Source of the DNA: Ulota crispa
Lineage: Eukaryota > Streptophyta > Bryopsida > Orthotrichales > Orthotrichaceae
Assembly: GCA_963920765.1 (NCBI GenBank)
Contig: OY987243.1
Location: 27,647,419-27,711,418, forward strand
DNA: 64,000 nucleotides
Direction of reading: 5' to 3'
This document shows, one piece after another, positions 3,950-59,888 of this stretch; within the stretch, counting starts at the first letter, position 1, and every line of letters starts with the position of its first letter. A program made the translations under genes and the position numbers. The notes beneath the pieces were generated by a model that did not search any database, was not told where the DNA came from, and saw nothing but the letters and a program-made list of their open reading frames with translations.

Positions 3950-3975
3950 GAGCATTTCGAGCATTGCCCTCTTAA

Positions 3976-4906
3976 CCCCTAAAGGACTGTTGTCCCTTTG
4001 GGGGACAGGTGGGAGTTTGGGCATGTACTTTTGGATAAGCTACTTTGTGTGATTTTCTGAAACTTTTATTGAAGGTGTGGAATTCAAAAATCTATGCGGG
4101 CATCTAATTTTTTCCTTATTCCAACAATTATTGAAGAAGTTATGCATGAAAATCTGAAAAGCAAGGGAGGACTGCCCCTGGATAGCCCAAAAACTTCTTT
4201 AAAAATTAATTTTTTTTAAAATTAAAATTTGAAATTGGTTCTTTAGAATTTTTTTTATAGATGAGAAGCTTTGAATCATTCAATTTCAATCAATGACATG
4301 AAAGTTATGAGGAGTTTTTGTTTGCGAGCAGTTATGGAATCTCTATTCTAAAATAAACTTTGAAGTCCTTCATTTTACTCAATTGTTATTACTTTGGAAA
4401 AAAAACAAAACCAAAGAATGTAGATTGTTTATCACAACATTATGACCGTTGGATTTGCATTTTTCATTTTAATAATTAAATTCTTAACAATTTAGTGATT
4501 TTACTCATTCTCTACTTCTTTTTACTTACTGATTTTTCCTATGGGTTGTGTAGTTCCAATTGATTTGAAAATTCTCCCACACATAGCTAACTTGATCTCT
4601 TACATGGGAAAAATAAAGCGCAAAGTTGCAAAAAGCAATTATTTTCATGTAAGAATGGTCAAAGGCTTTTGAAATTTTGCGGCAACATAAAATAAATATT
4701 TTCTTTTCACTTTAGATGTAAATATCTCACTCATGTTCATCTGGAATGACCTGATTTTTTTTCCACAAGTACCTAATCTAGTCTAGGGCAAGATCCTACG
4801 GTTGGATTTCCCAAATTTTCAAAAAAAAAATTACCTTCTTACTAACCCCCCAATAGTGGTAGTTTTGAGTGATTTTCACTAAAAAAATGGATCACTCCTT
4901 TAGGGG
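3976..4906. mobile_element. TTAA-flanked element, subfamily T2 (931 bp), inside F-a
   Basis: TTAA at 3972-3975 and 4907-4910 flanks ends CCCCTAAAGGAC and AGTGATTTTCACT...TCCTTTAGGGG. Thirteen bases in from the left end is a short hairpin, TGTCCC-TTTGG-GGGACA, kept in most T2 copies. Related copies are at 32892-33808, 33813-34722 and 57662-58591. It is non-coding. Confidence 0.85.
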
Positions 4907-4940
4907 TTAAAGCCTGACGGGCTTCAAGCATGGATGATAA

Positions 4941-5254
4941 GGGCATCTCCAGCGGTGGCTTGGGCTTGCTTAAAGTGGATGAAAAGTAGCGAGGTCCCTC
5001 TCAAAACCCTCTCAAACTCTCTTATTTGGCAAGTCTAGCAAGCCACTCTTCAAGCCACTATTCATGCATTATTCACCCTTAGTTTAGTGAGCTTTACCCT
5101 CTACTTCCCTAGATAAGTGGTCAACTGCTTATTTATGGGGTGTGTTGGAGTGTAAGGCCACCTTTTCAAAGAGCATGAGTGGAGATTGAGAGCCTTCAAG
5201 CCTTGCCAAACCAGATGGAAAACTTTGAGCAAGTCTAGGCCGGTGGAAATGCCC
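4941..5254. mobile_element. Harbinger-like MITE, GGGCATCTCC ends (314 bp), inside F-a
   Basis: The left end GGGCATCTCCAGCGGTGGCT and right end CCGGTGGAAATGCCC are flanked by TAA on both sides (4938-4940, 5255-5257). The outer sequence resumes exactly where the intact F copy at 19.5 kb predicts, so the TAA duplication is supported by comparison. Confidence 0.85.
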
Positions 5255-5527
5255 TAAGTGTTCCAAACCCCTCAAAATATTGTTATGGCACTCCATCATA
5301 GAGTGTCACGCAATGACCCTTCAAAATACTATTCATCTTAAGTTTAGTGAGCTTTATCCTTCATTCCCCTTGATGAATAATCAAATGACTATTTATGAGA
5401 CATGCTTGAAGAGAAAGGAGCACGTTTGAAGTGCAAGGATGAAGAATAAGCATTTCAAGGACTCTTCAAAAACAGATGTAATCTCTTCAAGTGTCAAGTT
5501 TGAAGTGCAACGCTGGAGACGCTCTTA

Positions 5528-5793
5528 CCTACAGTACATACTACAAAGAGATCTGTGCAGCTACTTTGTAAAGTCTGGCAAGTCGCAAAGGATGTGCGAC
5601 TTCCCTTTTGTACTCTTCCGTGAGTCCAGATGAATGATTCCTGAATGATGAAGAATCTGGGTGCGATGATCAAAAGGTGGCTTCCAATTGCTGCATCTGC
5701 TCAACAGAAACTGAGATGATTTCTATCATGAAATTTTGAAGAACAAGCAGGTACGCTCTGAGGGGCTCTGTCCTTGTTGTCCTTGTAGCATTA
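5528..5793. other. Spacer, nothing recognised
   Basis: Short non-repeat stretch with slightly higher GC. No gene could be supported. Confidence 0.4.
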
Positions 5794-5833
5794 GAGCGTC
5801 CGCACCCTTTACCCTTACACGCAAAGGGTCTCA

Positions 5834-6175
5834 GGGCAGCTTCACACTATGGCTGAAGGTCGAGAGGAAGTCGGTTTCCACCAATCAGATGGCAAGAAAT
5901 CAAGAGTTTGGCCTTTTAACCTTTCACACTAGAGGTCAAATTTCAAAAATTGGCATCTTTTAAGTGTCTACATGGCAATATTTTATTATCCAAAGTGACG
6001 GCTTCTCAAAAGGAAGTTTGGGTTCAGCAAAAATGGAGACCCAAACTATGAGTAAGAGGCCGTTAGTTTTAGCATTTGTTGCCTATTTTCAGCAAATTTT
6101 CTTGGCCTTTCAACAAAATTTGGCCACTCAATTTGATAGCCTCTTGACTTGGTCGGCCATAGTGTGAAGCCGCCC
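5834..6175. mobile_element. MITE K, GGGCAGCTTCACACTATGGC ends (342 bp)
   Basis: The left end GGGCAGCTTCACACTATGGC is mirrored on the right by GGCCATAGTGTGAAGCCGCCC. The flanking triplets are TCA (5831-5833) and TTA (6176-6178), consistent with a 3-bp TWA-type target and Harbinger-like placement. Nested in F-b. The open frames across it are not genes. Confidence 0.7.
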
Positions 6176-6200
6176 TTAGACTCGCAAGTCTTGGATGATA

Positions 6201-6659
6201 AGGTAGAAGCACCTTATGTGGACACTTTTGTGAAATCGATTCAAGAGGAAGGTGCACTAAGATTTTGAAATCGAATTTTGGTTAGTAAATGGGCACAAAT
6301 GGGTAGAAATTGTCCTCATATTATTTTGCAGTTTTTATGAATAAAATATGAATTTTTTGAAGACAAGGTTGTCAGTACACCTATTGTGGTCCCTAGACCT
6401 GCTGTAAACTAATCATGAACCTTGGGAAAAAAAACACGGAGAAGACTAAATGAGTGAACATGAGAATTTAAGAAAAAATGACTTTAATACTTAAAATGGT
6501 CATTGCAACTTGAATGCAAAACAACATTTGTCTCATTTGCCTACTGCAAGGGTTTGATTTGTCTACAACAAGAGTTTTGATTTGGGTGTAGTAAGGGTTT
6601 GTTTTTGGGGGAATTGTAGGGGTTTGATAAATTGGTGTCCATATAAGGTGCTTCTACCT
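6201..6659. mobile_element. MITE J, AGGTAGAAGCACC ends, TA target (459 bp)
   Basis: The left end AGGTAGAAGCACCTTATGTG is mirrored on the right by ATATAAGGTGCTTCTACCT. TA flanks at 6199-6200 and 6660-6661. It interrupts F-b at the same internal position at which F-a is interrupted by its GGGCATC element. Confidence 0.8.
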
Positions 6660-6938
6660 TAAGTATTCTAGGTCCCTCAAAGTGCTTTCTTGACTCTCAC
6701 GCCAAGCAATATCAAACAATTGACCCTTGAAATCACTATTCATCCTAAGTTTATTGAGCTTTATCTTATACTTCATTTGACGATTACTAAATGAATTGTT
6801 TATAAGGCACATTTGAAGAGTAAGGATGAAAGACACAAATTTTGAGGGCTCTTCAAAAATAGATGTGAACTATTAGAGAGTCGTATTTTGAGTGTAAGTG
6901 TGCAATGCTCTTTGCTTGCTTTTCAAATGAGGTACATA

Positions 6939-7264
6939 AGGTAGAAGGTTCAAAAACCGTCCAGGCTCAAAAATTGCTCACCCTCCAAAATGTTCTCATT
7001 CCGTACATGTATTTTTTCATAGATTCGTATAATGTACAGCGGATGTACATTTGAGGAGGTGCACCATTTTAGAGCCCTATGACTTTTTCACTTCAAAATT
7101 TCACAACTAATTCTACAAAACTTCAAAAAATATGAAACAATTTGGGTTAGATGTCAATTCTTCTTGCCTTTCAAGGAAATTTTACTGAAAATTATTTCAA
7201 GAAGTTCTACCTCCCCAAAATTCAGTTTCAGCCCTTAGATGGTCGGTTTTCGAGCCTTCTACCT
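6939..7264 (+). mobile_element. MITE family L, copy 1 (326 bp)
   Basis: The ends AGGTAGAAGGTTCAAAAACC and TTTTCGAGCCTTCTACCT are flanked by TA on both sides. The interior includes GGATGTACATTTGAGGAGGT. Two other copies of exactly the same length lie at 27501-27826 (same orientation) and 28509-28834 (reverse). Confidence 0.85.
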
Positions 7265-7460
7265 TACTCAAACTTTCTCTAAGGGTAGCTTCTCTCAAAG
7301 AAAAGCCTCCTCCCTGCCAATTCAAAGCCAATAGAGGAAACCAAGCAAGGGTTTTTGTTCTTCATTGGCTACTAATATATCCTTGAAAGCATGTGCAAAT
7401 AAAAAATGGAAAGAATCATGCATGTGAGCTCATCTGTTCTCAATCAGCTAATATTAATAA

Positions 7461-8398: not shown

Positions 8399-9812
8399 GT
8401 ATAGTACCTTGAACAATACATACATATCACATGTTTTGTCAATTCAAAGAATTTGCATAATCAGAGTTATAATTGACATTTTCTTGTTGTGCAACACAAT
8501 TTAGTAATTCTAATGCAATCCCAAGCAAGCGTATCAATTTTAGGTTTCAAAAGACCTAAACCTTGTTTTTAATGAACTATTTAGTGTCAAATCATGGTTT
8601 TACAAGAAACTTAATTGAAAAACATTGATGATGAATTTTTGAGATTTGATTGCATGGGTATGTAGGAAACATCCATAGGCACATTTTCCATGCTAAAACA
8701 AACCCCCTTAACCCCTAAAGGCCCAAGGAGGTAAGGGCAAAACATGGATGTATTATAAAATGGTACTTTGTAACTGATGAAATTTGCTTCAAAAGAGAAA
8801 ATAAGAATCATTATGTTTATTAATTATCCATATGGTGAAACATTCAAAAAGTTTTAGATTTTTATGTAATGAATTTAGAAGCATTTATCATTTAGTATTC
8901 ACCAAAATTACAAATTTTACTCATAGATTTCAAATTTTGATATGATTGGTTGAAATTAGACATTCTATCCTAAACTTCAAAAATGAAATCTTTTGAAATG
9001 AGAGAACATCATTAGTTTCCCAAAATAGTAAACTTTACAACACTAGTGAATATTGAAGTGTTTGTTTTTGAAAAATTCTCCTTGGTGGAGTTTAACTAGG
9101 ATAGACATGATTCAAATTAAGTTGGAAAGTAGACTTGGTTTTCTATTATAGAAAAAAAATGTTTTTTCTTGAATTTTTTTTTTTTGTCTTGGGCAGCCCA
9201 AAGAAACGGGCAGCAACTAGAAAATGGTCGATTGGACGCTTAGGGGTTAAGTAACAAAATTTTGATCCACAAATTTTTTAGTGTGACTTGTAATATGCCC
9301 AAATTCTATAAAATGTATATATTTATTTTTTAACTAGATTTTCACCATGTAAACATAATATCAAGTTCAAAAGTACAAACCTGGTTACAATGTAGGAATC
9401 AAATAGCAAAATTTTGATTGTCATACAAAAATGACTATTTTACAAGATTTGGGTACATCACAAGTCACACTAAAAATTTTGTGGATCAAAATTTTGTTAC
9501 TTAAGGGGGGTTGTTTTTGCATGGAAAATGTGCCTATGGATGTTTCCTACATACCCATGCAATCAAATCTCAAAAATTCATCATCAATGTTTTTCAATTA
9601 AGTTTCTTGTAAAACCATGATTTGACACTAAATAGTTCATTAAAAACAAGGTTTAGGTCTTTTGAAACCTAAAATTGGTACGCTTGCTTGGGATTGCATA
9701 AAAATTACTAAATTGTGGTGCACAACAGAAAATGTCAATTATAATTTTGATTATGCAAATTCTTTGAATTGAAAAAACAGGCGGTACATATGTATTGTTC
9801 AAGGTACTATAC
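8399..9812. repeat. Fold-back palindrome P3 with a TTAA element in its left arm
   Basis: The left end GTATAGTACCTTGAACAATA mirrors TATTGTTCAAGGTACTATAC on the right. The arms are highly similar, for example GGATGTTTCCTACATACCCA and its complement. The left arm is interrupted at 8712-9246. The matching point in the right arm (9501-9504) is intact and carries a single TTAA. Confidence 0.9.
8712..9246 (+). mobile_element. TTAA-flanked element, subfamily T3 (535 bp), copy a
   Basis: TTAA at 8708-8711 and 9247-9250 flanks ends CCCCTAAAGGCCCAAGGAGG and GATTGGACGCTTAGGGG. Copies of close to the same length lie at 18150-18689 and, reversed, 44147-44693. The uninterrupted opposite arm of P3 shows a single TTAA at the insertion point, so the duplication is direct evidence of transposition. 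There is no open frame of note. Confidence 0.92.
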
Positions 9813-9813
9813 C

Positions 9814-10681
9814 TGCGCCCTTGTTATTGTTTTTGTTCACCCTATTTTATAGATCCAAATCCTTTGGCATTTTATAAAATTAAATCAACATTTTAGTATC
9901 TTGGTCACTAATCTTCAATTTTTATGCAATCTCAATTAAGCATGTCAGTTTTTAGTTTCAAAAAACCAAAAGCCTATTTTTAGTGAATTATTTTACATGA
10001 TATTTATGGTTTTACTTGATAATTGGTTAAAAAAAATTTATGATAGATTTTTGAGATTTGATTGCATGGATACACAGGAAATATCCATACTCATCATTTC
10101 TTTTAATAAGCATCTCCAAAACATTAAAAAATTCCTTCTATATAGATTTTAATGTTGGGTAACCACAACCAAGTCTTAGTAAAATAGATATTTCATTATG
10201 ATAATTAGATTTTGCTATTTGACTTATAAAATATGATAAGGTTTGAATCTTTGAACATAATGGTATTGTTATTTTATTAAAAAATGGTTAAAAAATTAGA
10301 CATATCTATTTTACAAGATTTGATCATGTTCACTTCAACATTAAAAGCTACATAGAAAGAATTTTATAACTTTTTGGAGATGCTTATTCAAAGAAAAAAT
10401 GAGTGTATGGATGTTTCCTATGCATCCATGCAATCAAATCTCAAAAATCTATCATCAAATTTTTTTAACCAATTATCAAGTAAAACCATAAATATCATGT
10501 AAAATAATTCACTAAAAATAGGCTTTTGGTTTTTTGAAACTAAAAATTGATATGCTTGATTGAGATTGCATAAAAATTGAAGATTAGTGACCTAGATACT
10601 AAAATGCTGATTTAATTTTATAAAATGCCAAAGGATTTGGATCTGTAAAACATGGTGAACAAAAACAATGACAAGGACGCA
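9814..10681. repeat. Fold-back palindrome P4 (868 bp)
   Basis: The left end TGCGCCCTTGTTATTG mirrors CAATGACAAGGACGCA on the right. The arms share AAATCCTTTGGCATTTTATA and, further in, the AGATTTGATTGCATGGATAC text of P1-P3. It starts one base after P3 ends. A minus-strand open frame at 10618-10854 runs out of the right arm and is not supported as a gene. Confidence 0.85.
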
Positions 10682-11168: not shown

Positions 11169-12835
11169 ACAATGCATGACACTTATAACCAACACGGCCA
11201 ATCTAAAGCCCCATTTGCACTTGCACTTAGCGTTTCTGATATACCCCAAATAGAAGCGGTGAAAGCCTTGTGTGTTCCCACCTGCGATGGGTTTTAGACC
11301 TCGAGCCTAGCTAGCTGTGCAAGTGGCATAGATTTTAGTGCGGCAATTACAAAAAAGAGGAGATAATTTCCCAAAAAGTTGGAGATAATATGCCCACTTT
11401 ATGCATGTTGAAATCAACATAAAAATGGACATTTCAAGATATCCCAAGATTGTAGGGGCACTCTTTTGTAATGGAAGCCTCGAGGGTCATTTACGGAAGA
11501 GCGTTTAAAGTAAAGTCCCCAACTTTCGGTTTTAGCCCGTCAGTGTCACTAGGTTTGCTTTGATGGCGGCTACGACTTCAAACATGAGTATACAGGGTCT
11601 TGACCACTCTTGTAGTGCAATTTGTTCAGCATCGGCTCTTGCCCTTCACGCCTTGAGGACTGCATGTGTACAGGTATTGTACTGTGACTTCTCTTTTCCT
11701 TTTGGTTTCAGCATTGCAATGATAGAGTGGCAAAGAAATCATTGACTCAAAGTAGTGTTGCATGTTTGTGAATGAACTTAAGAGCTACTACTTTGCACTA
11801 GCTCAGAGCAATGCCACATACAATGCAAAGTAGCAACGTTGACATAGAATAGAAAGAGAGCAAGTACTAGAACTTGCTGTTCCATTTCAAAATTGTTAGA
11901 TCATGAAGGATCACGGTAAAGCCCTTGGGGAGGCACATGGACAAAGTAGTGAGAGTCACCAAGTAGTGCAATTGAATGTCACTTTCATTTTTTGCATGGC
12001 CAATGCTACATTGCTACCCATCGGATTAGGACCATTTAGAGACGAGGCTGCAATGTCGTCTAGGGAAATTACTAGCTTTGTCACTGCACTACTGCAAGGC
12101 AGTAATGTGTAAGGGCGTGTCTCCCAACCTCACTCCGTCTTCTTTTGCGCAGGACACTAGAAGCCGGTAACATGGAGAACCAGGGTCACCCACACTCGTA
12201 CAACTCCCTGATCCGCACTGCTTCGTTGCCTACACACCTTGTAAGCATTAACGGTAAGTTTTTAGTCATCAATCTTTCACATGTCATGTTCATTTCATCA
12301 CAATTGGTAATGTTGGCAAGTACATCATCATTGAATAAAATTGGTTGCATGAATTTGGAGGTTTTAAGCATGTACTTGTACCTGAGAGGCTGAGGTTGCA
12401 ACTTGTGCATACAATTGCTACTTCTTGTCTTCAATGAGTGCTACAAGTGCTCCTGCTTCTCCTCATTTTGTATGTTATGTACTCCTACCAAATTACCTGC
12501 AGTGTGAGTGAAATGAACGTCCAAAGCTATGGGCTCATTTTCTATGGTGTCACGTGACTTGCAACACAGACAAACACTCTCCAATGCTGCAATGAGAGAC
12601 CTCATACTTTTGAATCAAGGGGATTTTGGTTTGGAATCTCACCTTTTGCTACTGTATCTGCCTTGTAGGTGGCGTCCCCATTGGCAGTTTCCACTTGGGC
12701 AGGCCTCCAGCACCTATGAGGAGCCCAGCCAGCAGCGTGCGGCATGTCCTGATGGGGCCTTGACTAGCTCATACGGCTCCATTTGGCATCCCAACTCTTC
12801 TGCGCGGGGCGCCCTCCAGCAACAACGCAGCACTT

Positions 12836-13974
12836 GTGCCTATGCCCATTACTACCACTAGTGCACCTGCACTTACCCCAACGTCACAGATTGTCACAAA
12901 CAACAACAAGAGGGCATGCAGGGATAGGGGCCCAAATTGGATTCACCAAGAGGTACTAGCCCTTGTAGCCGCAAAGCATGAACTATTTCTTGAGGAGCTG
13001 GATGCGGTAGATGGATGCAACTTGATGACACTTGACACCACCAAGTGGGTGCGCATATTGCAAGATTTGATGAGGGCAAATTACTCTTTTGTTCTGCGTG
13101 ATGGGCCGGCTTGCAAAGCTAAGTGGAACCTCATCCTACCTAATTACAAACGAGTATCGGACTACTTGCAGCAATCGAGGATGAATGTCCCGAAATATTG
13201 GGATCTCACATCTGCACAACGGAGAGATGAGGGATTGCCCAAACAATCTCCATTGAGTTTTATAGGGCCATTGATGGCTGGTTTGGATCTAGGCCACAGA
13301 TCCAACCAGTATATCTCAGGGATGTCCCACTTGCAGTGGTCAATGAGAACCTTTGAGCTCCTGAGCAAGCGCAAGTCAAGGTCGAGGAGGAGAATTTCAC
13401 ATACCAAGACTCTAACGGCCCCACTGACGTCTTTGCTAGGCTAGAACCTCATGGTCCACTCTCACAAGGCACTCCACCGCCCTCTCCTCCTAGGTTAGCT
13501 TCACCTCCAGCAAGTGTCCCCTCCACTTCTAGTTTTGCATCCTGCCCCTCCATGTCAGCAGGTACACCATTGCCAAGGCCGGAATTCACAGCTCCACCTG
13601 GTGTGTCACCTCAAGTAATTAGCTCATCAGGGACATCTTCTTACAACATGGGACGACAATAGGACAACATAAATGTGAAGCGGAAAGCTGTATCTGGGCA
13701 TACCTTGATGGCGGAGGCCACTAAGGCAAATGGCAAGACAATTTTAAGACAAATGCAAGAAATTGCGCAATCTCATTAGGAGATGGAGCATTTGAAGATA
13801 GAGGTTCAGCTGAAGCTGTTCAAGCAAAACATGACATTCCAACAAGATAGAGACCAACGTCTATATGCTAATGCAGTAGTGGTAAATGAAATTCCCAAGG
13901 CTGCCGTATCCAAGCAAGGTGATATTGCTAACTGCCTTTCCCAGATTGTAGGTGTGTTGAGTACAGGCTTCTAG
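12836..13974 (+). pseudogene. Harbinger ORF1: Myb/SANT-like (trihelix-like) DNA-binding protein, decayed
   Basis: In the first frame (12836-13444) the region RDRGPNWIHQEVLALVAAKH ... KWVRILQDLM ... DGPACKAKWNLILPNYKRV is a Myb/SANT-like helix bundle of the type carried by Harbinger elements. In the family this protein helps bring the transposase to the nucleus and to the element ends. After about 13240 the similarity moves to another frame (YRAIDGWFGSRPQIQPVYLR), followed by a proline/serine-rich linker and a charged, coiled-coil-like tail ending QIVGVLSTGF near 13974. At least three in-frame stops lie in this second part. Start and exon structure upstream are uncertain; the 12836 ATG is only the first methionine of the open frame. 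Confidence 0.75.
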
Positions 13975-14635: not shown

Positions 14636-15642
14636 TCAGATGCAAGCCGAGCAAGTGCCGCTTCTCAACGGCGTCTGCAGTTCCTGCAATTGCAGGGATA
14701 GAGGTTCGGCTCCATGCCCTGCTTCACTGTCAATGCTAGCGTCCTTGGGCTCATTTCCAACAAAACCTTTGTTTCTTAAAACTCCAAACAAGTTTTGGAC
14801 CTTGTCTTGTGATTGCTCTAGAAGCGTGTTGTGCAATATTGCACAACAAAGTATCACGTCAAGTAAAAAAGCAACGTCCAACTCTGATTTATTTAGCAAC
14901 TCTCAGAAAGTTTGTTTGAGAATGCTAAAGGCATTCTCAACCACACAACGTCCCTTCTAGAGGCATTTGTTAAAAAGAAACTCAGCAAAAGACAACTGGA
15001 CATTACTTTGGTAGGGTACCATGAGCCACGGCAGCAATGGAAAACCTAAATCACCAAGAATGTAAAGAGAGAATCCTGCGGCACCTCGCCAGTTGTTAAA
15101 AAAATTTGCCTTGTTGCGCAATGATAGAGGGAAGACCTCTTGAGAACTCTAGAGTCGTTTGTTGAACCCGGCATCTCGAGGAAGAGATCTAGGAATCGCT
15201 TCTCTGAATCCACAACCACTTGACAATTCAAATTGTAACCACCGGACTTGAAGTAGAAGTAGTCCGCAGGAACAAAGTGTGGCTTTGTAATGGAGATGTG
15301 CATCCCGTCAATCGCACCGACTACACCAGGTAGTCCAAACAAGTTAGAAAACTTTTGCTGGATTAAATACAACTGATCACATGTTGGCCAATGAATTTTG
15401 TGCTTCAAGGTGACATTAATTGCATGGACGACATCACGTAAGAGCCCAGAGATAGTGCTTTTGCCTATGGCAAACATCTCTAAGCATATACACAGCGACT
15501 CTCCGCAAGTCAATTTGAACAAGGTGCATGCAACTTGAATGATAACCGAAATGGCAAACCAATATTTTGTATCTTTCCTCTTGATTTGAGGAGCAAGTAT
15601 GTCTGCCAAAGCAAACACATTGCGCTGCGGCATTTGGAACAT
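14636..15642 (-). pseudogene. Harbinger transposase (DDE_Tnp_4 / HARBI1-like nuclease), decayed
   Basis: Reading the minus strand from 15642, an N-terminal helical part (ISVIIQVACTLFKLTCGESL, then GKSTISGLLRDVVHAI) is followed by the catalytic core. The first aspartate is in VVGAIDGMHISITKP, then NLNCQVVVDSEKRFLDLF, and the second aspartate is in MPGSTNDSRVLKRSSLY. After a frame change near 15075 the core continues as GDLGFPLLPWLMVPY. The glutamate of the DDE triad is in VENAFSILKQ (codon at about 14936-14938), and the tail DVILCCAILHNTLLEQSQ is typical of the family. In-frame stops lie at 14957-14959 and 14903-14905. An intact enzyme would cut and join at TWA targets. It faces ORF1 in convergent orientation. 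Whether the open frame at 15735-16013 is an upstream exon cannot be decided. Confidence 0.9.
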
Positions 15643-17114
15643 TTTGATTTAGCGTGTGTCGTCATATTCACTCATGACAAACCTCAAAAACCAAGTCATC
15701 GGCCTGGATTTAACCTAGTCCCCTAGGTCCTCATTCATGAAAATAGAGACATGTAGAATTGAAAGCCTCGCAACCCTAAACAGACAGACGCAAGCGGATC
15801 TTCTACTGGCTCACCGAGGTCCGCAATATATCCGCTACAGCACTCGATGAATCTCCCTCCTAGATGGCATGAAGTGGCAAGACAAAACCGTAATGCGCAA
15901 TCAAAGTCTGAAGAAACAACCAAACGCCCAGCAAAATAGCCAATTCGGCATCCCAACTGCTGTCCATTACTATTCGCTTTCCACCCTGTCCCACACGGCA
16001 TGACAAACCTCACTCAAAACTCAACGCATTTTATTCATTGGAACGCAAAAGGTTGCATTGCTGTATTGTACAGTAAACCCTTCAATCCTCAAATTGCTTT
16101 CGAGGAGGACAGACCCTGACCCTTAAAGCAACAAGCATCACATGAAGGGAAAAAGAAACAAAATTGCTCCCCACCCGACCCTCTCCACTTGAATCTCATA
16201 TGCATAAAACCTGCAGACACTGAATTTGCACAAGAAAACGACAACAGCATGGAGAGAAGAAGGCATACTTCTTGCACCAATCTCCTTGATAGGTTCCCAA
16301 TTTGAAAGTCGACATTCAAGAACTCCACTTCAGTCACCCATGCTCACATCTCTCCGGATTGGAATCCCTCCGCGACTAGAATCCCAGCAGCAGGTAACGT
16401 GATTTCTAATATGTCAACAGCACACACAGGTCCTGCAATGATAGTTTGTGACAACGGGCACCTCCCAATAATGCAACCATGAGGACATGAACATTGACAG
16501 CAGGGAACGTAGAAAAACGCAAGAAAACGTAGGCGTGCTTGTGAAGACGGAGCACCAAGAGCAGCGCACATGAAAACAAAATAGAGCGGTTTGAAGGAAA
16601 GATGAGCTGGACGTCAACGGCAAAGAGGAGGTTTTTAAGAAAGAGTGAGGGGATGTGGGAACCCCTCCTCTCCTCATCATGATTACGTAAAAAGCTGCAT
16701 CTGGAGGGACTCTAATCACTTGGCCTAAAACTGCTAATGGGATTGGTCATCACCCTATAAATGCACAAGCTTACTAAACCGTGGCTTTCCTATCTAGCAA
16801 AGCCAAACCCTAATTCCAATGGAATAGTCCACAATTTTAATTTTTAAAACCCCTTTTACCAAACGCCAAGTGCAAATGGGGCATAAGTGGTTAGCCTAAG
16901 GCTTTGTCAAAATAAAAGTTATCAAAAAAACAAGTCCACCAAGATGAAGCTTAAATCTTAAGCTTCATCTTGGTGGACTCAATTTTTTAATAACTTTTTT
17001 TTGTCAAAGCCTTAGGTTGACCACTTAAATTGGCCATTGTTGGTTATAAGTGTCATGCACTATAGAACAAACAAACTTCTTACTTTTCTAACAAATAAAT
17101 TATCCAACCCTTAA

Positions 17115-17879
17115 CCCCTAAGCGCCCAGCCCATGACTTGCAAAAGTGAGCCTGCGAGGAGGTAAGGTCATTGGAATTGATGCAATAGGCAGCTAAGTTA
17201 GATCCGAGAAATTTCACCGCAGAGCTTGGCTCATGACGACAACGCTAATCACATATTCCAATTTGTTGAGAGATTTACCAATTAAAGAAAAAGATTATAA
17301 AGGTCAAAATAGGGTTGACCTTCTTGGGAGGGGTCCACATATGGTATTGTGAGGGCTTCCATTCCTCAGTATGGGCGGTGTAAGGGGAATTTAGACTTGA
17401 AATTTTGGCAAGGCGTTGGGTGCAAGGTTTACTGACATGATACAAAATTACAAGTTTTTTTGAGGTCAATTTGACCACCTACGCAACCTTGTAGCTCATG
17501 TTGTTCCGCTGCTTTTCAAGCAGTGACCGGATTGTGGGTATCAGGTCACTGACACATCCTCTTTCCTCCTTATCCCCTCCCTCTGTTCTACTTGCTAGCT
17601 AAGCAGTCTCAAGGTTTTATTTCACTGCCACGGCTAGCAGCCAACTCTCTCCGATGGTCCTAGTGGGATCCGCCCACCCAAAACTCAAGATACTGGACGC
17701 CACAACCTAGATCTTATGCACAATAAGTTATTCTCAATGGCCCCCACTCACAGTCATTCAATACCCCAGTCCTGTACACGTGGGTACAAATTTAAGCAGG
17801 GTACAACCCCATCTGGACCTACTAAAACATAGTTTTTCAATCCCTAGCAACAAAATCCCGTTGCTGGGGCACTCAAGGG
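17115..17879. mobile_element. TTAA-flanked element T4 (765 bp)
   Basis: The left TTAA (17111-17114) is followed by CCCCTAAGCGCCCAGC. The right end GGGGCACTCAAGGG is followed by TTAA at 17880-17883, and that same TTAA is the left flank of T5. The interior is richer in GC than its neighbours. No coding frame is supported. Confidence 0.7.
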
Positions 17880-17883
17880 TTAA

Positions 17884-19478
17884 CCCTTAAAAGTCCTTGC
17901 ATCTAGACCCTTAAAGAATAAGCAGGGAGATTTTTCAAAAAATAACTATAGAAAGGCACCCAGTTGTAATATCAAACAAAATTAGTCAAAAAATGAAGAT
18001 ATTGGGTAAATATCAATCAATTACCAATCAAATTTGCCACACAATTTTTTTAGTATAAATATAAAAGCAATATTTGGTGCATGCATTCAAAAAAATAGTT
18101 CAAAATGGGAATTAATAGATTTTGCCAATGAAGTTCAAAATTTCCTTAACTCCTAAATGCCCAAGGGGTGAGGGCAAAATATAGATGTATTATAAAATGA
18201 TACTTTTGTAACTTCAATGAAGTTTTCTCTTTTAAAGAGAAAACAAGAATCATGATGTTTAGTAATTATCCATATGGTCAAACATTAAAAAAAGGTTTTG
18301 GACTCTTATTTAATGAATTTGGAAGCATCTATAATTTGATATTCATCAAAATTACAAATTTTATTCATAGAATTTACAATTTAGTATGATTGGTTAAAAA
18401 CATTCTTTATATTCAGAAATTCAAAAATGCAATCTTTTTGAAGGAGAGAACATCATAAATTTCTAGAAATGGTAATTTTTTTAACACCAGCAAATACTAA
18501 AATGTTTGTCTTTGAAAAATTCTACTTGATGGAGTTTAAATTGGACTGACATGATTCAAATTGGGTTGGAAAGTAGACTTGCTTGTTACTTGAAATTATT
18601 TTTTATTTTAAAAGAAAAAATCTTTTTACATTTTGGGCAGCTTGCAAAAAGGACATTGACCAAAAAATGGTCAACTGGGCGCTTAGGGGTTAAACTTTAT
18701 TGGATAAAATTTCTAGCAAATATCAAGGAAATTTATTTCTCTCAAGTGCTCTAAAGAGTTACTAAATGATACACACTTTTGTAATCATAATCTACGTCTA
18801 TTAGTACTGCCATCAAGATTCAAATAAAAGTTGTTTTGTTAAATAGACCTTCATGTACTAACAAAATTGAAAAAAACTCAAGACACTTATGGCAGTTGAA
18901 ATGTTTTATACCCGTGTTAGCAAACAAAAGTTTACCAACTACTTCCATGCCAATTGGGAAAAAACAAGTAAGAAAATAGAATTCGTCTTTTCAACAAACT
19001 CTGAAAGTGTGCCAGATTGGGTGCATGGTATATCATTCAAAACTTCTTGACAAAATCCTTTCTAACTATACAGCACATGCCCCATTTGGAACTAAGACCA
19101 TAATTTTGTGTACCAGTCATAACATGTCACGAGATAACATTGATGCTTTACCAAATCTAGCCTATTTCACAATCCAAAATATGGTCAGGTTCACAATCAA
19201 CACAATTATTGTCCTTGTACCATGTTAGCATAACCTTTGAACGCCCAGGCCAAATTCACTTAAATCCATACCTTTGTGTACTTAGTTCAATAAAAGTATT
19301 ACCTAAGTATAGTCAATCAAATAGCTTGAATTTTTTTTGGATGGTAGTAGACACATGCATGGAGGTACACAAAAAAGTACAAATCCTTTGAGTGTGGCAT
19401 TAAGAAGAGAATAAGAGCCAAACGTGGACATCTTTCAAAAACTAGAGGCGATGATATTGCCCGTGGGGCGCTCAGGGG
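17884..19478. mobile_element. TTAA-flanked element T5 with a nested T3 copy
   Basis: The left end CCCTTAAAAGTCCTTGC follows the TTAA shared with T4. The right end GGGGCGCTCAGGGG is followed by TTAA at 19479-19482. It is interrupted by T3 at 18150-18689, leaving about 1.05 kb of its own sequence. Confidence 0.7.
18150..18689 (+). mobile_element. TTAA-flanked element, subfamily T3 (540 bp), copy b
   Basis: TTAA at 18146-18149 and 18690-18693. The ends CTCCTAAATGCCCAAGGGG and CAACTGGGCGCTTAGGGG, and interior text such as TATAAAATGATACTTTTGTA, match copies a and c. Confidence 0.85.
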
Positions 19479-39328: not shown

Positions 39329-39332
39329 TCAA

Positions 39333-39861: not shown

Positions 39862-39865
39862 TTAA

Positions 39866-40764: not shown

Positions 40765-40768
40765 TTAA

Positions 40769-44206: not shown

Positions 44207-44252
<46 letters not shown>

Positions 44253-44998
44253 TAATAGAAAATCAAGTCTACTTTCCAACCCAACTTGAATCATGTCAAA
44301 TCCAAGTTAAACTCCATCAAGGAGAAATTTTCAAAGACACACTTCAATATTTGCTAATGTTGTAAAATTTACTATTTTGGAAAACTGATGATGTTCTCTC
44401 CTTTGAAAAGATTGCATTTTTGAAGTTTACAATAGAATTTCTATTTTTAACCAATCATACCAAATTTTAAAATCTATGTTTAAAATTTGTAATTTTGGTG
44501 AATATTCAATGGTAAATGCTTCTAAATTCATTAAATAAAAATCTAAAACTTTTTTTGAATGTTGGACTATATGGATAATTACTAAACATCATGATTCTTG
44601 TTTTCTCTTTTGAAGCAAACTTCATCAAAGTTACATAAGTATTTTTTTATAATACATCTATGTTTTGCCCTTACCCCCTTGGACGTTTAGGGGCTAATAG
44701 TATCCTATTATTTGCTAGTCTATACTAATAATAGGCTTGGTTGCATTAGTTGGGTGGTTGGGTGTTAAAAATAATAGAATGTAAGGCAATTGCGAAACTA
44801 ATCAATAACCAAATTTGTTGCAACCAAATTTGTTGCAACCAAATTTTCTACCTTACTAACCCCATGAAATATTTTTTATAAGCATGGGATGTGCCGATAA
44901 CCTTCCGCTGAAACGACAGGTGCACAAATCCACTAGTTGTTTATTAATAATCATCATGTTCAAAACCCTTAATTTGACATTTATGGGTGCTCCTACCT
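43917..44998. mobile_element. Family-B MITE, copy B3, with nested insertions
   Basis: The ends AGGTAGGAGCACCCATAAGC and TTTATGGGTGCTCCTACCT are flanked by TA. The interior parallels B2 in reverse. It is interrupted by T3 copy c (44147-44693) and by a second stretch (about 44724-44930) that starts and ends at CTAG and contains tandem AACCAAATTTGTTGC. Confidence 0.8.
44147..44693 (-). mobile_element. TTAA-flanked element, subfamily T3, copy c, reversed (547 bp)
   Basis: TTAA (44143-44146) and CTAA (44694-44697) flank ends CCCCTAAGCGCTCAAGCG and CCCCCTTGGACGTTTAGGGG. The interior is the complement of copies a and b. It contains a T-run of nearly 40 bases at about 44212-44251, which makes a spurious poly-lysine open frame. 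Confidence 0.85.
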
Positions 44999-45000: not shown

Positions 45001-45533
45001 TGTGCAGTACACTGAGCCCAACTTTTGCCTCCTAAAATAATCTACTGCGAAAACCGACAGCGTGGGTTATCCTACGTAGTAAAGTTCTATAATCTACGCT
45101 ACCCATACAGCCCAGATACTCTGCCTCCCAGTTCATCCTAGACATTAGAAATGTACAGATTTTGTAGATAATCGAACAGCCTTCTCAGTCTGTGCAGTGT
45201 TCTGCGTCGTGCGTCGCCGGTGGCAAACCCTTGCAGGCAGAGTTGTATATCGGGACGAAGATCTGGCGATGGTGGCTCGCAAGTGACGAACCTCGCAACC
45301 CTTCGAGCTTGCCGACAATCTCCGCCAGGTCCCTCGCTCACAAGTAAGTCAAGTCATTATCCTGTTTCCTATCAAGCATTTCATTCGTTCTGCTCACGTT
45401 ACTTTTGTAGCAAGCTTCCGATCATCGACGGCCCTACTCCAGAAAATCGGAAGTTCGTGACAGTTGTGATTTGAACGTTGGTGCAGAAACAAGCGGAGAC
45501 AAGGGTTCTTGAAGAGAATTGTAGCTCCGAGCA
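45001..45533 (+). promoter_or_regulatory. Promoter and 5' UTR of the ribophorin II gene, with a probable 67-bp UTR intron
   Basis: The composition shifts to about 50% GC from 45150. A strong donor, CACAA|GTAAGTC, at 45344 and the acceptor ACTTTTGTAG at 45410 would remove 67 bases upstream of the start codon. Several short open frames cross this region on both strands and are not genes. Confidence 0.5.
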
Positions 45534-46709
45534 ATGGCGGTATCGACCTTTGGGGTATTGTTGCTCCTGACGTGTTTTTTAGGGTTTGTGAAAGCTGCGG
45601 AGGAAGGGTTGGTTCTAGAGTTGGCATCGCACACGTTCTCGCTCGGATCGGATGCGCACAAGCTTGAGGTCGTCGTCGTGCCGTCGCGCGATGGATCTAC
45701 TACTGCAACCTCTTCTACAGTGACTCTTATTTCAGCGCACTCTGTTGCCACGGGCTCGCCGGTCTCGTTCTCTGAGCATCACAAGTTTTCTTCCCTTGGA
45801 GACGGGAAATACGAATTGGCGCTTCAATCAGATGAACTCTCTTTGGGAAAATACAAAGTGAGGATCGATGCAGACAGCGGGAAGGGTCATCTCTCGTCTG
45901 TGGTTGCGGTGACCGCTCCTATATCCGTGTTGAATGCTAAAGCTGTTGTTTTGGAGAGCGATGGCTTGGAATCGGTTACCGAATTAGGGTTTCCGAAAAC
46001 TGTTACCCTGTCGGCAAGCCATACGCAGAAATTGAAGGTGTCGTTTGAGCTTAAAACTCCATCTGGAACTCCTTTCAAGGCACAACAGGTGCTTGTGAAG
46101 CTCAGGCACGTCGAGAGTGGCGGAGAGGGGGTCTACCTCGTCAAGCCGTCAAGAAAGTTAGGGTATGAGCAGACGCTGGACTTCTCCAAGATGCCGGAGA
46201 AACTGAAGCATCAATCGGGAGCTTACGCTGTGGAATTGATCGTTGGTGATGATGTCATGGAGAATTCTTTCATCTGGAATGCAGCATCGTTGGATCTGGA
46301 CTTGCCCGAGGGACCTGAGGAAACGAAAGCTGATGCGTCTGTGTCCAAATTTGAACCCAAAGCAGAGATTGCCCACATCTTTCGTCAACCTGAGAAAAGA
46401 CCTCCGGGGTATCTGTCCATGACGTTCTTAGTTCTGACGTTGGCTCCTCTGGTTGGATTCTTCATGGGGTTGCAGCAACTTGGTGTCAATTTGAAGAGCC
46501 TTCCGTCGAGCGGATTGCCTATGGCTGCTGCTGCTGGCTTTCACGGAGGTATTGCCATGATTCTGGGCTTGTATTTCTTGTTCTGGTTGAAGCTGAACCT
46601 GTTCACCACGTTGCAGGCGCTCGGTTTCTTAGGTTTGTTTACCCTTGTACCAGGATTCCAGATTCTGTCCTACTTGGCTGATCATTCTGCCAAGATGAAA
46701 TCCGCGTAG
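45534..46709 (+). CDS. RPN2: Ribophorin II / Swp1-type subunit of oligosaccharyltransferase (391 aa, intronless)
   Basis: The protein has an N-terminal signal peptide (MAVSTFGVLLLLTCFLGFVK, cut after about residue 21) and a luminal beta-rich part to about residue 275. Then comes the family signature FRQPEKRPPGYLSMTFLVLT (about 283-302), followed by three membrane segments at about 294-313, 335-352 and 357-378, and a short basic tail HSAKMKSA. Human RPN2 has the matching HLFREPEKRPP motif and the same C-terminal topology. The complex transfers N-glycans to nascent proteins in the ER membrane. Plant and animal RPN2 are usually 600-700 residues; this one lacks the large N-terminal domain and is nearer yeast Swp1 in size, yet starts with a good signal peptide, so it looks complete. 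The CDS has no intron. The frame is undamaged and codon use is richer in GC than the flanks. The first ATG is taken because the signal peptide begins there. Confidence 0.92.
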   Translation: MAVSTFGVLLLLTCFLGFVKAAEEGLVLELASHTFSLGSDAHKLEVVVVPSRDGSTTATSSTVTLISAHSVATGSPVSFSEHHKFSSLGDGKYELALQSDELSLGKYKVRIDADSGKGHLSSVVAVTAPISVLNAKAVVLESDGLESVTELGFPKTVTLSASHTQKLKVSFELKTPSGTPFKAQQVLVKLRHVESGGEGVYLVKPSRKLGYEQTLDFSKMPEKLKHQSGAYAVELIVGDDVMENSFIWNAASLDLDLPEGPEETKADASVSKFEPKAEIAHIFRQPEKRPPGYLSMTFLVLTLAPLVGFFMGLQQLGVNLKSLPSSGLPMAAAAGFHGGIAMILGLYFLFWLKLNLFTTLQALGFLGLFTLVPGFQILSYLADHSAKMKSA

Positions 46710-49129: not shown

Positions 49130-52100
49130 TTCCATGGATGCATCTATAGATCCATTTGAAGCTGAGGCTTTTGAAATACATGTTGTTGAGAACACTCATA
49201 CCGGTGAGTCATCTGATGTCCTCCTTGACTCTACAATAACACATATAATTTTGCGTAATAAACATTTTTTTGATAAGCATAATCTTTCATCTTGGAAAAC
49301 CAAAAATTTGATTACTATGGCTGGATTGAATGTGTTTCAATTCTAGGAGGGGTCAACAAAGGTGATATTGCCTGAGGGCACTACCATTACATGCATGCGT
49401 GCTATGTATTCTCCCTTTGCCCTCCAAAGTCTGATCAGCTATTGGGATGTGCGCGCCAACGATTTTCACCTCTTGACCAAAATTTTAGATAATCGTGAGG
49501 CTTTGGTTATTATGTTTAATAATAAAATTGTGGAAACAGCCTTTATTGCGGCAAGTGGTTTGTATCGAATTGTGATCCGGCCACCTAGTGTATACAGTTT
49601 TGCTATATCTTGTAAAAATGATAAAATTTCAATCTGGCATGGACGATTTGGTCATCCAGGTTCTACATTATTTAGGAAAATTATTTCTTGTGTTGTTGAA
49701 CACAATCTACAGATTGCAGATGTGAATTTTGTGACATTATGTCAAGCATGCGTGCAAGGCAAATTGATTGCCAAACCATCATTATGGAAGCTTCTCCATG
49801 AATTACCACCAATGCTTTCAAGGCTACATGGTGATATTTGTGGTTCAATAAATCCTATATCAGGACCATTTCAATATTTCTTGGTTTTGGTTGATGCATC
49901 AAGCAAGCAATCACATGTCTCGTTATTATCAACAAGAAATTTGGCTTTTGCCAATTTATTATCAATGTTGATCAGCTTCAAGGACAATTTCCTTGATTAT
50001 CCAATCAAGACATTGCGTATGGATAATGCTCGGGAATTTCAATTAAAATCCTTTGAAGACTATTGTATTGCAATAGGGATTGATTTGACATATTCAGTTC
50101 CATATGAACATGTTCAAAATGGATTGGCAGAGTCTTTTATCAAACGGATTCAGCTTATTACAAGACCATTGCTTCTTCATGCAAACCTGCCAGCATCTAT
50201 GTGGGGACATACAGTTTTATATGCAGCAACTTTGATTTGATTCCGCCAATCTATTTTGGAGAATGCTTCTGCACAAGAGCTTATTTTAAGGCGTATTCCT
50301 AGTGTATCTCACCTGCAAGTGTTTGGTTGTTGTATATGGGTTCCAATTCCAGAATCCCAACGCCATACTATTGGAGCTCATTGACAAGAAGGCATTTATG
50401 TTGGATTTGACTCTCTAAGCATTATTCATTATATCAATCCTTATAATGATACGTTGCTTTGAGCTCGTTTTGCCAATTGTTGATTTGAAGAGGATAAATT
50501 TCCATCTTTTCAGGGAGGAGCATCTATTCAAAAGCATTCTAAGGGCATTATATTTAAGGCACCTAAAACATTTACATTGAACCCTGATTCTTGAATATCT
50601 TTGGCTGAAACTGAGGTTGCTAAAATTTTGCATTTGCAAAAGATTGCGGATCAAACACTTGATGGTTTCAATGATGCACCAAGGATAACCAAGACTCCAT
50701 TAAGTGAAGCTCAAAATCTCTTTGCTCAAGTTTCAATTCCAAAAACCATTTCTACTCTAACTTTGCAATTAGTGGGCAAGTGGACTCGTGGACCTAATAA
50801 GCAACCACGCAAATGTAAGACTATTTCATCTACTTCTACAACAACCACTTCTACTTCTATGAGATCTGCAACTCATGAGGGAGAAAATTTTGTTTCTGAA
50901 CATAATATTCCCAAGCCAAATATAAAAGCGCTCTGACCGTAGCGAGGTATGAATATTGTTCACCCAATGGTTCCTACTCCTCCTTGCAAGGGCAATAAGG
51001 TTCTTCACTATTGTTGCTCCGACCAACCATAGGCTCATAAAAATATCATCATGAAGAGAGCCATAGAGATAAGCAGTAACAACGTCCATAAGACGCATTT
51101 CCAATGTGGTGTGTACGGCCATTCCAAGAAGATATTGGAAAGTAATAGAATCCATAACCGGTGAATATGTAGAATCATAATTAACTCCAAACTTTTGAGT
51201 GAAACCTTGAGCAACCAAATTTGCATGTATTGCAGCTAAGGAGTTACTCATTCATGAGTTTGAGATGAAACTCCTTGGTAAAACTACCTTTTGCATTGGC
51301 TTGCAAATTATTCACTTGAAAAATGGTAGCATATTTCTTTCCCAACATGCTTATATAAACCAAGTATTGAGAATGTTTAATATGACGGATGCTTACCCGT
51401 TATCTACGCCTATGGTTTGTCGGAGCAACAATAGTGAATGACCTTATTGCCCTTGCGAGGAGGAGGAGGAACCATTGGGTGAACAATATCCATACATCGC
51501 TGCAGTCGGAGCGCTTTTATATTTGGTTACATCTACAAGGCCTGACATTGCATTTGCAATCAATGTATTTGCAAGACATAGTGCCCATCCAACACTTTGA
51601 CATTGGAATGGTATTAAACATCTTCTTCATTATTTACAAGGGACTAAAGATTTGGGATTGCATTATTCTAAATCAATGAATCCTACATTGGTTGGGTATG
51701 CTGATGCTGGTTATAAATTTGATCTCGCAACAGCCAAGTCTCAAACAAGTTATGTTTTTTTAAGGCATGGAGCTGCTATATCTTGGAAATCGGTAAAGTA
51801 AACAATAACTGCAACATCATCTAATCATGCAGAAATTATTGCTTTACATGAAGCTTCTAGGGAATGCATTTGGTTGAGATCCATTGATAAGTTTATTCAA
51901 ACAAATTGTGGATTACCATATAATGATTCCCCAACTATTTTGTATGAAGATAATAGTGCTTGCATTGCACAAATGCAAGCAGGTTTTATTAAAGGTGATC
52001 GGACCAAATATATTGATCCCAAATACTTTAGCTACATCCATGACTTGATTTAAGCGCAAGCACTTGAAATCAAGAAAGTCATCTTGGCAAATAATCTTGC

Positions 52101-57315: not shown

Positions 57316-57447
57316 CACTAATAGAAAATTGTGTTGAAGTCAACATAAACTACATGATGTTTTCATGCTTCTAATGCAAATTTCTGTGTTAGAATCATGA
57401 AAACATCATGTAGATTATGTTGACTTCAACACAATTTTCTACTACTG
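57316..57447. mobile_element. Hairpin MITE N2 with CACTA-like ends (132 bp)
   Basis: CACTAATAGAAAATTGTGTT is mirrored by AACACAATTTTCTACTACTG. The stem includes AACATAAACTACATGATGTT(TTCATG). A 3-bp direct repeat TTC lies at 57313-57315 and 57448-57450. CACTA ends with a 3-bp duplication fit the CACTA (En/Spm) superfamily. Confidence 0.8.
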
Positions 57448-57661
57448 TTCATTGGAATCTATCCAAAGCAATAGTGTACTAAATAAAAAAACTCATGTTT
57501 CAACCTGTCCATTCAATAGTCAAATGACCAATTTACCAAATAATAAAAAAAAAACTCATGTTGCAACTTGTTTGTTCAAATAATCAAATGATCAGTTTAC
57601 TTGATATTTGGAAGATGAAAGGACATTGATTTGGCAATGAATCTTATTAGACAGCTCTTAA

Positions 57662-58591
57662 CCCTTAAAGGACCGTTGTCACTGCGGAGACCGTTTGGAT
57701 TTTGGTCATGTACCTATGGGTAAACTACTTTGCGCGATTTTCTGAAACTTTTATTGAAGGTGGGGAATTCAAAGATCTATGTGGGCATTTAATTTTTTCT
57801 TCATTCCAACATTTGATGAAGAAGTTATGCATGAACTTATGAAATTTTGGGGCAGGTTGCCCAGACGGGCAGCCCAAAAACTTCTTTAAAAATGATATAT
57901 TTTTTAAATAAAAACTTGAAATTGGTTCTTTTGATCTTTTCATACATGTGAAGTTTTGAATCATTCAATTTCAATTGGTGAGATGAAAGTTATGAGGAGT
58001 TTTTGATTGCGGGCTGTTATGGAATCTCTACTCTAAAATAAACTTTGAAGTCCTTTATTTTACTCAATTTTCAATATTTTAGAAAAAAAGCTAAACCAAA
58101 GGAAGTAGATTGTTTATTACAACAATGTAACTGTTGGGATTTGCATTTTTCATTTCAATAATTAAATTCTTAACAATTTAGTGTTTTGACTCATTCTCTA
58201 CTTCATTTTACTTATGAATTTTTCCCATGTGTTGTATAGTTCCAATTGATTTGAAAATTCTCCCACACATTCCTGACTTGGTTTTCTACATGGGAAAAAA
58301 AAACCTCAACTTTGCATAGAGCAATTTTTTTGATTTAGGAGTGGTTAACGGCATCTGAAATTTTTGGGCAATATGGAAAAAAACTTTTTTCTTCACTTCA
58401 TATATAAAAATCTCACTCCTTGTCATTTGGAATAAGCTCAAATTTTTATCCCAAGTACCTCATGTTGTCTAGAGCAAGATCCTACGGTTGGATTTCAAAA
58501 AAAAAGTAAAAAAAATACCATTCCTCTCATTTCCCCAAAAGTGGCAGTTTTTAGTCTTTTTCATTGACAAAATGGCTCAAGCCTTTAGGGG
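57662..58591 (+). mobile_element. TTAA-flanked element T14, T2 subfamily (930 bp)
   Basis: TTAA at 57658-57661 and 58592-58595 flanks CCCTTAAAGGACCGTTGTC and AAGCCTTTAGGGG. Its length is within one base of T2a (931 bp), and the interior follows it closely (TGCATTTTTCATTTCAATAA). Confidence 0.9.
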
Positions 58592-58739
58592 TTAATTTGT
58601 ATTTTAAATTGAATACAAAGGGGCAAGGAGGGAGACAAAAAGACAATTGAAATGAACCCCTTTGAATATTTTTTAAATTTAAATTTGAAGTTTAAAACTA
58701 AAAGAGGTATAGATTGATATGAAAAGACATTTTTAATTA

Positions 58740-59005
58740 ATGAGCCCCATTCATGGTTGTTACATTGGACCAATTCTAACCCGCCCGTCGGTTTGACGCA
58801 AATATATATGGTCTAGGCACGGACCCATATACCTTTTTTTCTTATATTTTATTTCAGAATGGGTTTAGACACAACCTTGCACTTACGCCAGAACATCAAC
58901 TTCTTGATTTTAGAGTGAACAACCACCCCATTTGGACCTGACTATCCGTCTGCTTGTCCTATTCGATAGCAAAATCTTGCCTGATGTAACAAGCCTAGCC
59001 CCATT
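58740..59005. repeat. Family-M repeat, copy 2
   Basis: CATGGTTGTTACATTGGACC at the left and GATGTAACAAGCC at the right. Block order matches 7858-8125. Boundaries are approximate. Confidence 0.5.
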
Positions 59006-59579
59006 AGATAATTCTTGATTTGAGCTTAAAATTCAAATTCAAACAACAAGGAGGTAAATGAAAGGGCATGCATGTTTCATTTACCTTGATGAATGGGTTT
59101 AGATTTTATAAAAAACATGTGTTCCCAAATATACAAGCAAACTAATAGTAGTTTGGATTTAGGCCTTCATCTACCTTGATAAATGGGTTTATAAGACTTG
59201 TAGTGTACTAAATAAATACTTGATTATATTTGAAAAATACATTAACCTTTGAATTGCAAATTTGCAATAGCTACTAGAGATTTGGTATTTTTCCCAATTT
59301 TCTTTCTTGAGATTGTCAATGAAGCTAAACTCTTCCAACCCACCACTTGGATTTTTATTTTCTTTAATACATCTTCAGAAAACTTAGTTGGCAAAAACCT
59401 TAGTGTAGTGTGAATTTCAAGCACATGTTTGCAATGCAAGGTCATGGAGGGTCCAAGGGTGTGTTCCATGTCTTGGTTGATTACAAAAAACTAGAGAGAT
59501 ATGCTTAACATGGTTTAGAGCATTTTAGAGAAATCTCTTCAGCACCTATAGTGCAAAAATTGTTCATCACATCTGGTTA
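59006..59579. other. Spacer, nothing recognised
   Basis: No shared repeat or gene was seen. Confidence 0.4.
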
Positions 59580-59824
59580 AAGGCACCTAAAAATTTTGAG
59601 CAGGGATAAAAAAAAACTTTATGTACTACCTTCAGATGATCGTATCTCTCAATCTGTATGGTCAAACTTCACAAATTTTTCATACTATGTTCTTAAATGA
59701 GTCTACTACAAGATCCTGAGATTAGATTTGTATTTTTTTGAATTTTTTTTTTTTTGGGATCAAATTACTAGAAATGACAATTTTGAGTCTTTTTGAGAAA
59801 AAAATATGCTTGGTCCTTTAGGGG
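59580..59824 (+). mobile_element. Right-end fragment of a T2/T8-type TTAA element
   Basis: AGATCCTGAGATTAGATTTG and GACAATTTTGAGTCTTTTTG followed by GGTCCTTTAGGGG and TTAA (59825-59828). The left part is missing. Confidence 0.65.
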
Positions 59825-59888
59825 TTAAGAGCTTGGTGCAATTGAATGTCACAACTCACAACTTTCTTGGCGCTCTAGATCATACCAA

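Follow-up and report, generated by a model that had tools for sequence, protein, structure and literature searches.

The stretch of DNA analyzed here, the window, covers 64 kb (positions 27,647,419–27,711,418) of contig OY987243.1, in a genome of 274.8 Mb in 157 contigs, and contains many short TTAA-flanked elements that we interpret as miniature inverted-repeat transposable elements (MITEs) of the piggyBac superfamily. The end motif TTAACCCYTAAAGG, allowing up to two mismatches, is found 31 times in the window against 1.24 expected (100 shuffles, maximum 4), and pairing of inverted ends yields 14 elements, M1 to M14, with 232–1,668 bp between their TTAAs. TTAA is exact at 25 of the 28 flanks of these paired elements, and the other three (the start at 32888 and the ends at 39332 and 44697) are one base off. 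The repeated TTAA-flanked ends are confirmed as a real observation. An earlier note on this DNA had described about 20 copies or fragments with such ends, starting at 3972 and together occupying 12–13 kb, or a fifth of the window. Their recurrence stands, whereas the pieces are slightly fewer, the set starts at 3308 with M1, and the 14 elements, with a mean length of 776 bp, cover 10,869 bp (11,556 bp including similar fragments), or 17–18% of the window. The elements and end fragments are as follows.

M1, 3308–3547, no strand assigned: 232-bp MITE, ends CCCTTAAAGGACCG, TTAA on either side
M2, 3972–4910, plus strand: 931-bp MITE of the CCCCTAAAGGAC class; ends match transposase locus U2
M3, 8708–9250, minus strand: 535-bp MITE; its flanks, when joined, match copies of the target repeat that have a single TTAA and no insertion
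M4, 17111–17883, no strand assigned: 765-bp MITE, ends CCCCTAAGCGCCC and CCCTTGAGTGCCC; right TTAA common to the end starting at 17880
M5, 18146–18693, minus strand: 540-bp MITE of the family of M3 and M12
Fragment, 26767–27111, plus strand: CCCCTAAAGG end with flank CTAA; terminal ~480 bp match the right ends of U2, AB and AC (V2 less)
M14, 30615–31531, no strand assigned: 909-bp element, right end CCCCTAAAGGACC; one TTAA in common with M6
M6, 31528–32284, no strand assigned: 749-bp MITE, joined to M14 via the single TTAA
M7, 32888–33812, no strand assigned: 917-bp MITE, tail to tail with M8 via a single TTAA
M8, 33809–34726, no strand assigned: 910-bp MITE, inverted relative of M7 (79%)
M9, 36043–37718, no strand assigned: 1,668-bp composite that includes the left end of the 930-bp class in inverted copies
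M10, 39092–39332, no strand assigned: 233-bp MITE
M11, 39862–40768, minus strand: 899-bp MITE, matched at both ends by transposase loci I and R
M12, 44143–44697, plus strand: 547-bp MITE of the M3/M5 family; uninterrupted form of the site entered by element P
M13, 57658–58595, plus strand: 930-bp MITE; ends match transposase locus V2
Single end fragment, 59775–59828, minus strand: CCCCTAAAGGACC with TTAA flank

Internal lengths group at 232–233 bp (n = 2), 535–547 bp (n = 3), 749–765 bp (n = 2) and 899–931 bp (n = 6), with the composite at 1,668 bp (n = 1). At least four length classes had been described in the earlier note, but length class does not equal family: among the six long elements, whole-length matches are limited to M2/M13 (81%) and M7/M8 (79%, inverted). 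Some neighbors are joined directly. M7 and M8 (32888–34726), tail to tail through one TTAA, make up a 1.8-kb palindrome, and single TTAAs common to neighboring elements lie at 17880, 31528 and 33809. Genome-wide, the abutting-end sequence CCTTTAGGGGTTAACCCCTAA has 280 matches, about 2% of the exact ends, with palindromic places counted twice. Inverted copies of the left end of the 930-bp class lie within 36043–36770, and a 726-bp fold-back of a similar kind, with left-type ends at both sides, is found at 1543–2268 of another stretch, L042.

Beyond the window, the exact 14-mer TTAACCCCTAAAGG occurs 15,411 times in the genome (7,719 plus 7,692) against once for its reversed control, and the looser end motif TTAACCCYTNANNG 50,697 times against 535 in the control; the density of the exact 14-mer in the window (8 in 64 kb) is about twice that of the genome (15,411 in 274.8 Mb). 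Directly before CCCCTAAAGG stand TTAA 15,411 times and VTAA 654 times, so that 15,411 of 16,065 ends (96%) retain the outer T. The target is therefore TTAA rather than TA, the choice that the near-constant TTAA had already favored in the earlier note, and a TA-only target, as for Tc1/mariner, is ruled out. As a rough inference, halving the 50,697 ends gives some 25,000 elements, which at 776 bp each would make up about 7% of the genome (20 Mb). Among the traits of MITEs, lack of coding capacity, short fixed lengths and high copy number are all present, and same-ended parents are found for two classes only. Of 8,941 first-look candidates for copies of M2, 40 were scored; the 39 others are mostly full length, the full-length ones 88–94% identical, with three partial matches at 74–85%. 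For M3 (1,509 candidates), the best other copy among those scored reaches 90%, the rest 86–89% and one partial match 76%. Because no near-identical copies of M2 or M3 occur among those scored, a very recent burst in these two families can be discounted, and amplification appears to be over for the families sampled.

As the earlier note had also observed, no transposase of the piggyBac type is encoded in the window (tblastn with 17 transposase domains, none at E 0.05). A genome profile search with PF13843 (DDE_Tnp_1_7) gave 120 matches at 116 loci above cut-off, with a best E of 1.3e-73, and none in 14 control genomes; the 116 loci are a lower bound, with 116 of 528 candidates scored. The protein from one locus matches T. 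ni piggyBac (PDB 6x67, E 4.1e-20) and piggyBat (9c0f, E 5.8e-17). We extended 29 loci with flanks, namely 27 of a set of 30 from the PF13843 search and two others. Among these, the four catalytic aspartates are kept in 27 (D1), 21 (D2), 24 (D3) and 25 (D4) loci, the copies being partly decayed. A C-terminal Cys/His cluster could be recognized clearly in 11 loci and loosely in one; in the other 17 it was not found, with frameshifts and stops not bridged. Thirteen of the 29 transposases sit between TTAA-flanked inverted ends in agreement at no fewer than 11 of 14 bases, compared with a mean of 4.1 (standard deviation 1.5, maximum 9) when right ends are shuffled among loci 1,000 times. These 13 end-bounded elements measure 5.0–8.8 kb, and it is because the elements are longer that strict motifs, applied to 1.5 kb around 30 transposase loci, revealed no ends. 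Short inverted ends starting CC(C/T), a piggyBac trait, are present in the 14 paired window elements and in 13 of the 29 transposase loci; the element at one locus, P, starts CTCC on one side. Some transposase matches come in pairs on opposite strands, 15–110 kb apart (C7:18203169/18223004, C2:36765124/36779670 and C10:676128/785346), with equal or nearly equal scores and identical stops; these would be inverted duplications or assembly effects.

The piggyBac assignment, proposed in the earlier note from ends and target, is supported by relatives with the same ends, which encode DDE_Tnp_1_7 and no other class: for the 930-bp class of M2 and M13, U2, V2 and AC (8.8, 8.5 and 8.2 kb, respectively), three of the 13 end-bounded elements, and for M11, I and R. 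Of the two findings that the earlier note named as refuting the assignment, a different transposase class behind the same ends and flanks with only TA conserved, neither was obtained. The TTAA-flanked left end of U2, V2 and AC is TTAACCCCTAAAGG, which also forms the right end of V2 and AC, while the right end of U2 is CCCCTAAAAG; in a fourth locus, AB, the right end is present, and a search over 6 kb revealed no left end. M13 matches V2 at the left end (nt 1–188, 85%) and at the right end (nt 573–938, 80%), and M2 matches U2 likewise (nt 1–181, 86%; nt 584–939, 76%). The end sequence common to U2, V2 and AC extends further (about 275–316 bp on the left) than that which they have in common with M2 and M13 (142–218 bp), which identifies the MITEs as shortened forms. 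M11 can be aligned at its two ends to I (5.7 kb), over 553 and 135 bp, and to R, over ~585 and 270 bp, and I and R have 1.8 kb in common over the transposase. A further candidate was rejected: P, which runs over 5.3 kb from TTAA and CTCCTTGAGGAC to GTCCTCAAGGGG and TTAA (2024–7331 of the assembled stretch), matched both halves of the 540-bp MITEs and so resembled a parent, but the junction shows P nested at a TTAA of such a MITE. M3, M5 and M12 thus represent the uninterrupted site of P and not its derivatives.

Insertion into a single TTAA is seen at uninterrupted sites. The flanks of 14 window and 14 transposase-bearing elements were joined across one TTAA and searched against 363 kb of DNA, and uninterrupted relatives with a single TTAA exist for one MITE (M3) and two transposase-bearing elements (W and P). 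P was queried with its outer bounds among the 28, and its negative there is uninformative. The targets of M3 and W, at corresponding TTAA sites, belong to another repeat family, present in the window at 1344–3202 and 8399–10681, with long inverted repeats (arms of 82–330 nt, 73–97% complementary).

Taken together, we are highly confident that the window elements are non-autonomous piggyBac elements (MITEs), probably moved into TTAA by a genome-encoded piggyBac transposase. Each MITE would be an internally deleted or rebuilt element that has kept the ends, CCC(C/T)TNANNG.CC, presumably recognized by the transposase. The latter would be supplied by elements of 5–9 kb elsewhere in the genome and would cut at the element ends, with insertion into TTAA leaving one TTAA at each side. 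The anatomy of the elements suggests that the transposase acted on the MITEs in trans, and excision is likely to be seamless.

Several results weigh against this interpretation. The proposed parents contain nothing that matches the middle of M2 and M13 (~nt 190–570) or nt 553–773 of M11, and no transposase parent was found among the 29 loci for M1, M3/M5/M12, M4, M6, M7/M8, M10 or M14. U2, V2, AB and AC were chosen for further extension on account of their match to MITE ends, which makes the sample of loci non-random. In 16 of the 29 loci, the flanks retrieved contain no two ends that agree at 11 or more of 14 positions. Stops interrupt most transposase loci, which leaves a complete working copy putative. 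Moreover, only two of the 28 joined-flank queries (M3 and W) gave matches spanning the junction. Eight matches span that of M3, with exact TTAA in four (one of these being the window's own inverted arm beside M3, the other three from elsewhere) and TTTA (1) or AAAA (3) in the rest; eight likewise span that of W, with exact TTAA in four, TAAA in one and TTTT in three.

An alternative is that the MITEs belong to another superfamily with a short A+T-rich target and that the piggyBac transposases nearby are unrelated neighbors. Tc1/mariner elements target TA, PIF/Harbinger elements TWA, and Kolobok or Sola3 elements TTAA, so the target by itself would suit the last two, and a PIF/Harbinger transposase fragment lies within the window (15046–15648). 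Chance neighborhood is also plausible in a repeat-rich genome with 280 abutting ends, where P first resembled a parent and proved to be a nested insertion. We nevertheless judge this alternative very improbable. The 96% retention of the outer T opposes a TA target; U2, V2, AB and AC, which form one well supported clade, carry the same right-end sequence 1.6–1.8 kb downstream, three of them also carry the same left-end sequence, and I and R repeat the pattern for M11. As for Kolobok and Sola3, the parents found in a genome search aimed at the piggyBac domain encode PF13843.

Still less credible, to the point of being nearly negligible, is a spread of the end motif without transposition, through tandem or segmental duplication or as telomere-like repeats. 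Its starting point is the CCCTAAA within the end, which is the usual telomere unit of plants. The copies, however, are dispersed over contigs, have fixed length, match over their full length and bear inverted ends, and for M3, W and P the single-TTAA uninterrupted relatives refute such a spread.

Within the piggyBac superfamily, a tree of the 29 DDE domains (midpoint-rooted for drawing only) splits the loci into groups of 10 and 19, and the parents of the window MITEs (U2, V2, AB and AC; I and R) fall within the 10. An upstream coding stretch of about 100 residues, with the pattern NCL..LL.LP...W..LF.RQIAKLLGW, is present in 15 of the 19 (for example, at L044:3566–3940); the same search detected it neither in E, Y, AA and G of the 19 nor in any of the 10. 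It starts 1.6–2.1 kb upstream of the DDE domain in 14 loci and 4.5 kb upstream in N, and lies inside the element in all seven carriers whose two ends agree at 11 or more of 14 positions (A, C, F, J, P, W and Z). The ratio of nonsynonymous to synonymous substitution rates (dN/dS) for this stretch is 0.14–0.33 in five of seven pairs; the young pair A/B gives 0.73, and the seventh is saturated (ratio of the uncorrected proportions, pN/pS, 0.26); several dS values exceed 1, and the ratios are hence rough. For the DDE domain, dN/dS is 0.13–0.20 in three pairs and 0.6 in A/B, with pN/pS of 0.16–0.30 in five saturated pairs. These ratios suggest that the upstream domain is under purifying selection. 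It matches no Pfam family (best E 0.051, in one of nine members) and, in the PDB, neither a sequence (best E 0.19) nor a fold (best E 4.0); its predicted model is all-helical, with a predicted local distance difference test (pLDDT) score of 70 and a predicted template modeling (pTM) score of 0.63. Separately, H, U2, V2 and AC have another upstream coding stretch in common.

The host can be narrowed from the same genome. Dynein heavy chain (PF03028) is encoded at nine or ten places (16 matches, 14 above cut-off) and ARF (PF06507) at seven (13 matches), with no match to either in the 14 controls. Flowering plants are not known to have dynein heavy chain, and ARF is a streptophyte family; the combination points to a bryophyte, fern or lycophyte. 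The land-plant host named in the earlier note is therefore upheld and narrowed to a seedless one. On balance, we lean towards a broader picture in which a seedless land plant has long been host to many piggyBac lineages, which became major builders of its genome, and in which one clade has a plant-type architecture with a conserved, all-helical N-terminal or accessory domain of no assigned family, placed 1.6–2.1 kb (in one locus, 4.5 kb) upstream of the DDE domain and held under purifying selection.

Other features of the window include Myb/SANT-like (12764–13444, plus strand) and DDE_Tnp_4 (15046–15648, minus strand) fragments, as in a PIF/Harbinger element, a Copia-type remnant with gag_pre-integrase and integrase core (49347–50240), and a coding stretch for Ribophorin II, an oligosaccharyltransferase subunit (45525–46709).

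Among the titles and abstracts listed in literature searches, none describes a piggyBac MITE group from a land plant; one hit, PMC10619864, merely contains the word piggybacking. Two papers on animals mention piggyBac as present in plants (PMC10813416, PMC10140906), a plant review lists it among the superfamilies (PMC10794571), and a repeat table for Ceratopteris richardii gives 1,230 PiggyBac copies covering 122 kb (PMC6890710). A survey of MITEs in 207 plant genomes, four of them from bryophytes, sorts these elements into five superfamilies and Micron with a length limit of 800 bp, does not name piggyBac in its main text, and reports mean MITE shares of 0.7–2.2% by plant group (PMC12550479); in two papers on moss genomes (PMC6723128, PMC9631980), the passages on repeats leave superfamilies unnamed. 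piggyBac, a group familiar mainly from animals, is a workhorse of gene transfer, and natural plant piggyBac elements have hardly been described. A dominant group such as this one would be overlooked or misassigned by plant MITE pipelines that cover five superfamilies and stop at 800 bp. Furthermore, the genome supplies natural, plant-adapted transposase lineages for comparison with those of animals, including an upstream domain unmatched in Pfam and the PDB.

Compared with animal piggyBac elements (T. ni piggyBac, piggyBat), those described here are alike in their TTAA target, short inverted CCC ends, DDE_Tnp_1_7 domain, aspartates and, in the loci where it is clear, C-terminal Cys/His cluster, and differ in their seedless-land-plant host, in element lengths of 5.0–8.8 kb against the 2.2–3.5 kb given for bees (PMC10140906), and in the conserved upstream domain of one clade. 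With plant MITEs such as Stowaway, Tourist and others, they have in common that they are short, non-coding and high-copy, with inverted ends and fixed length classes; the difference is that the main text of the 207-genome survey, which admits elements up to 800 bp, is without piggyBac (PMC12550479). Animal and ciliate piggyBac MITEs are likewise non-autonomous TTAA elements mobilized by piggyBac transposase (PMC2872659, PMC9942856), and differ in host kingdom and, as far as the visible parts of these sources go, in family sequence. Ceratopteris richardii also has PiggyBac-labeled repeats in a seedless plant, although in the passage concerned they form an automatic class without ends, transposase or MITEs (PMC6890710), whereas the genome studied here contains 50,697 ends along with 116 or more transposase loci. 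The elements are ordinary members of the piggyBac superfamily; unusual are their host, their scale and the upstream domain.

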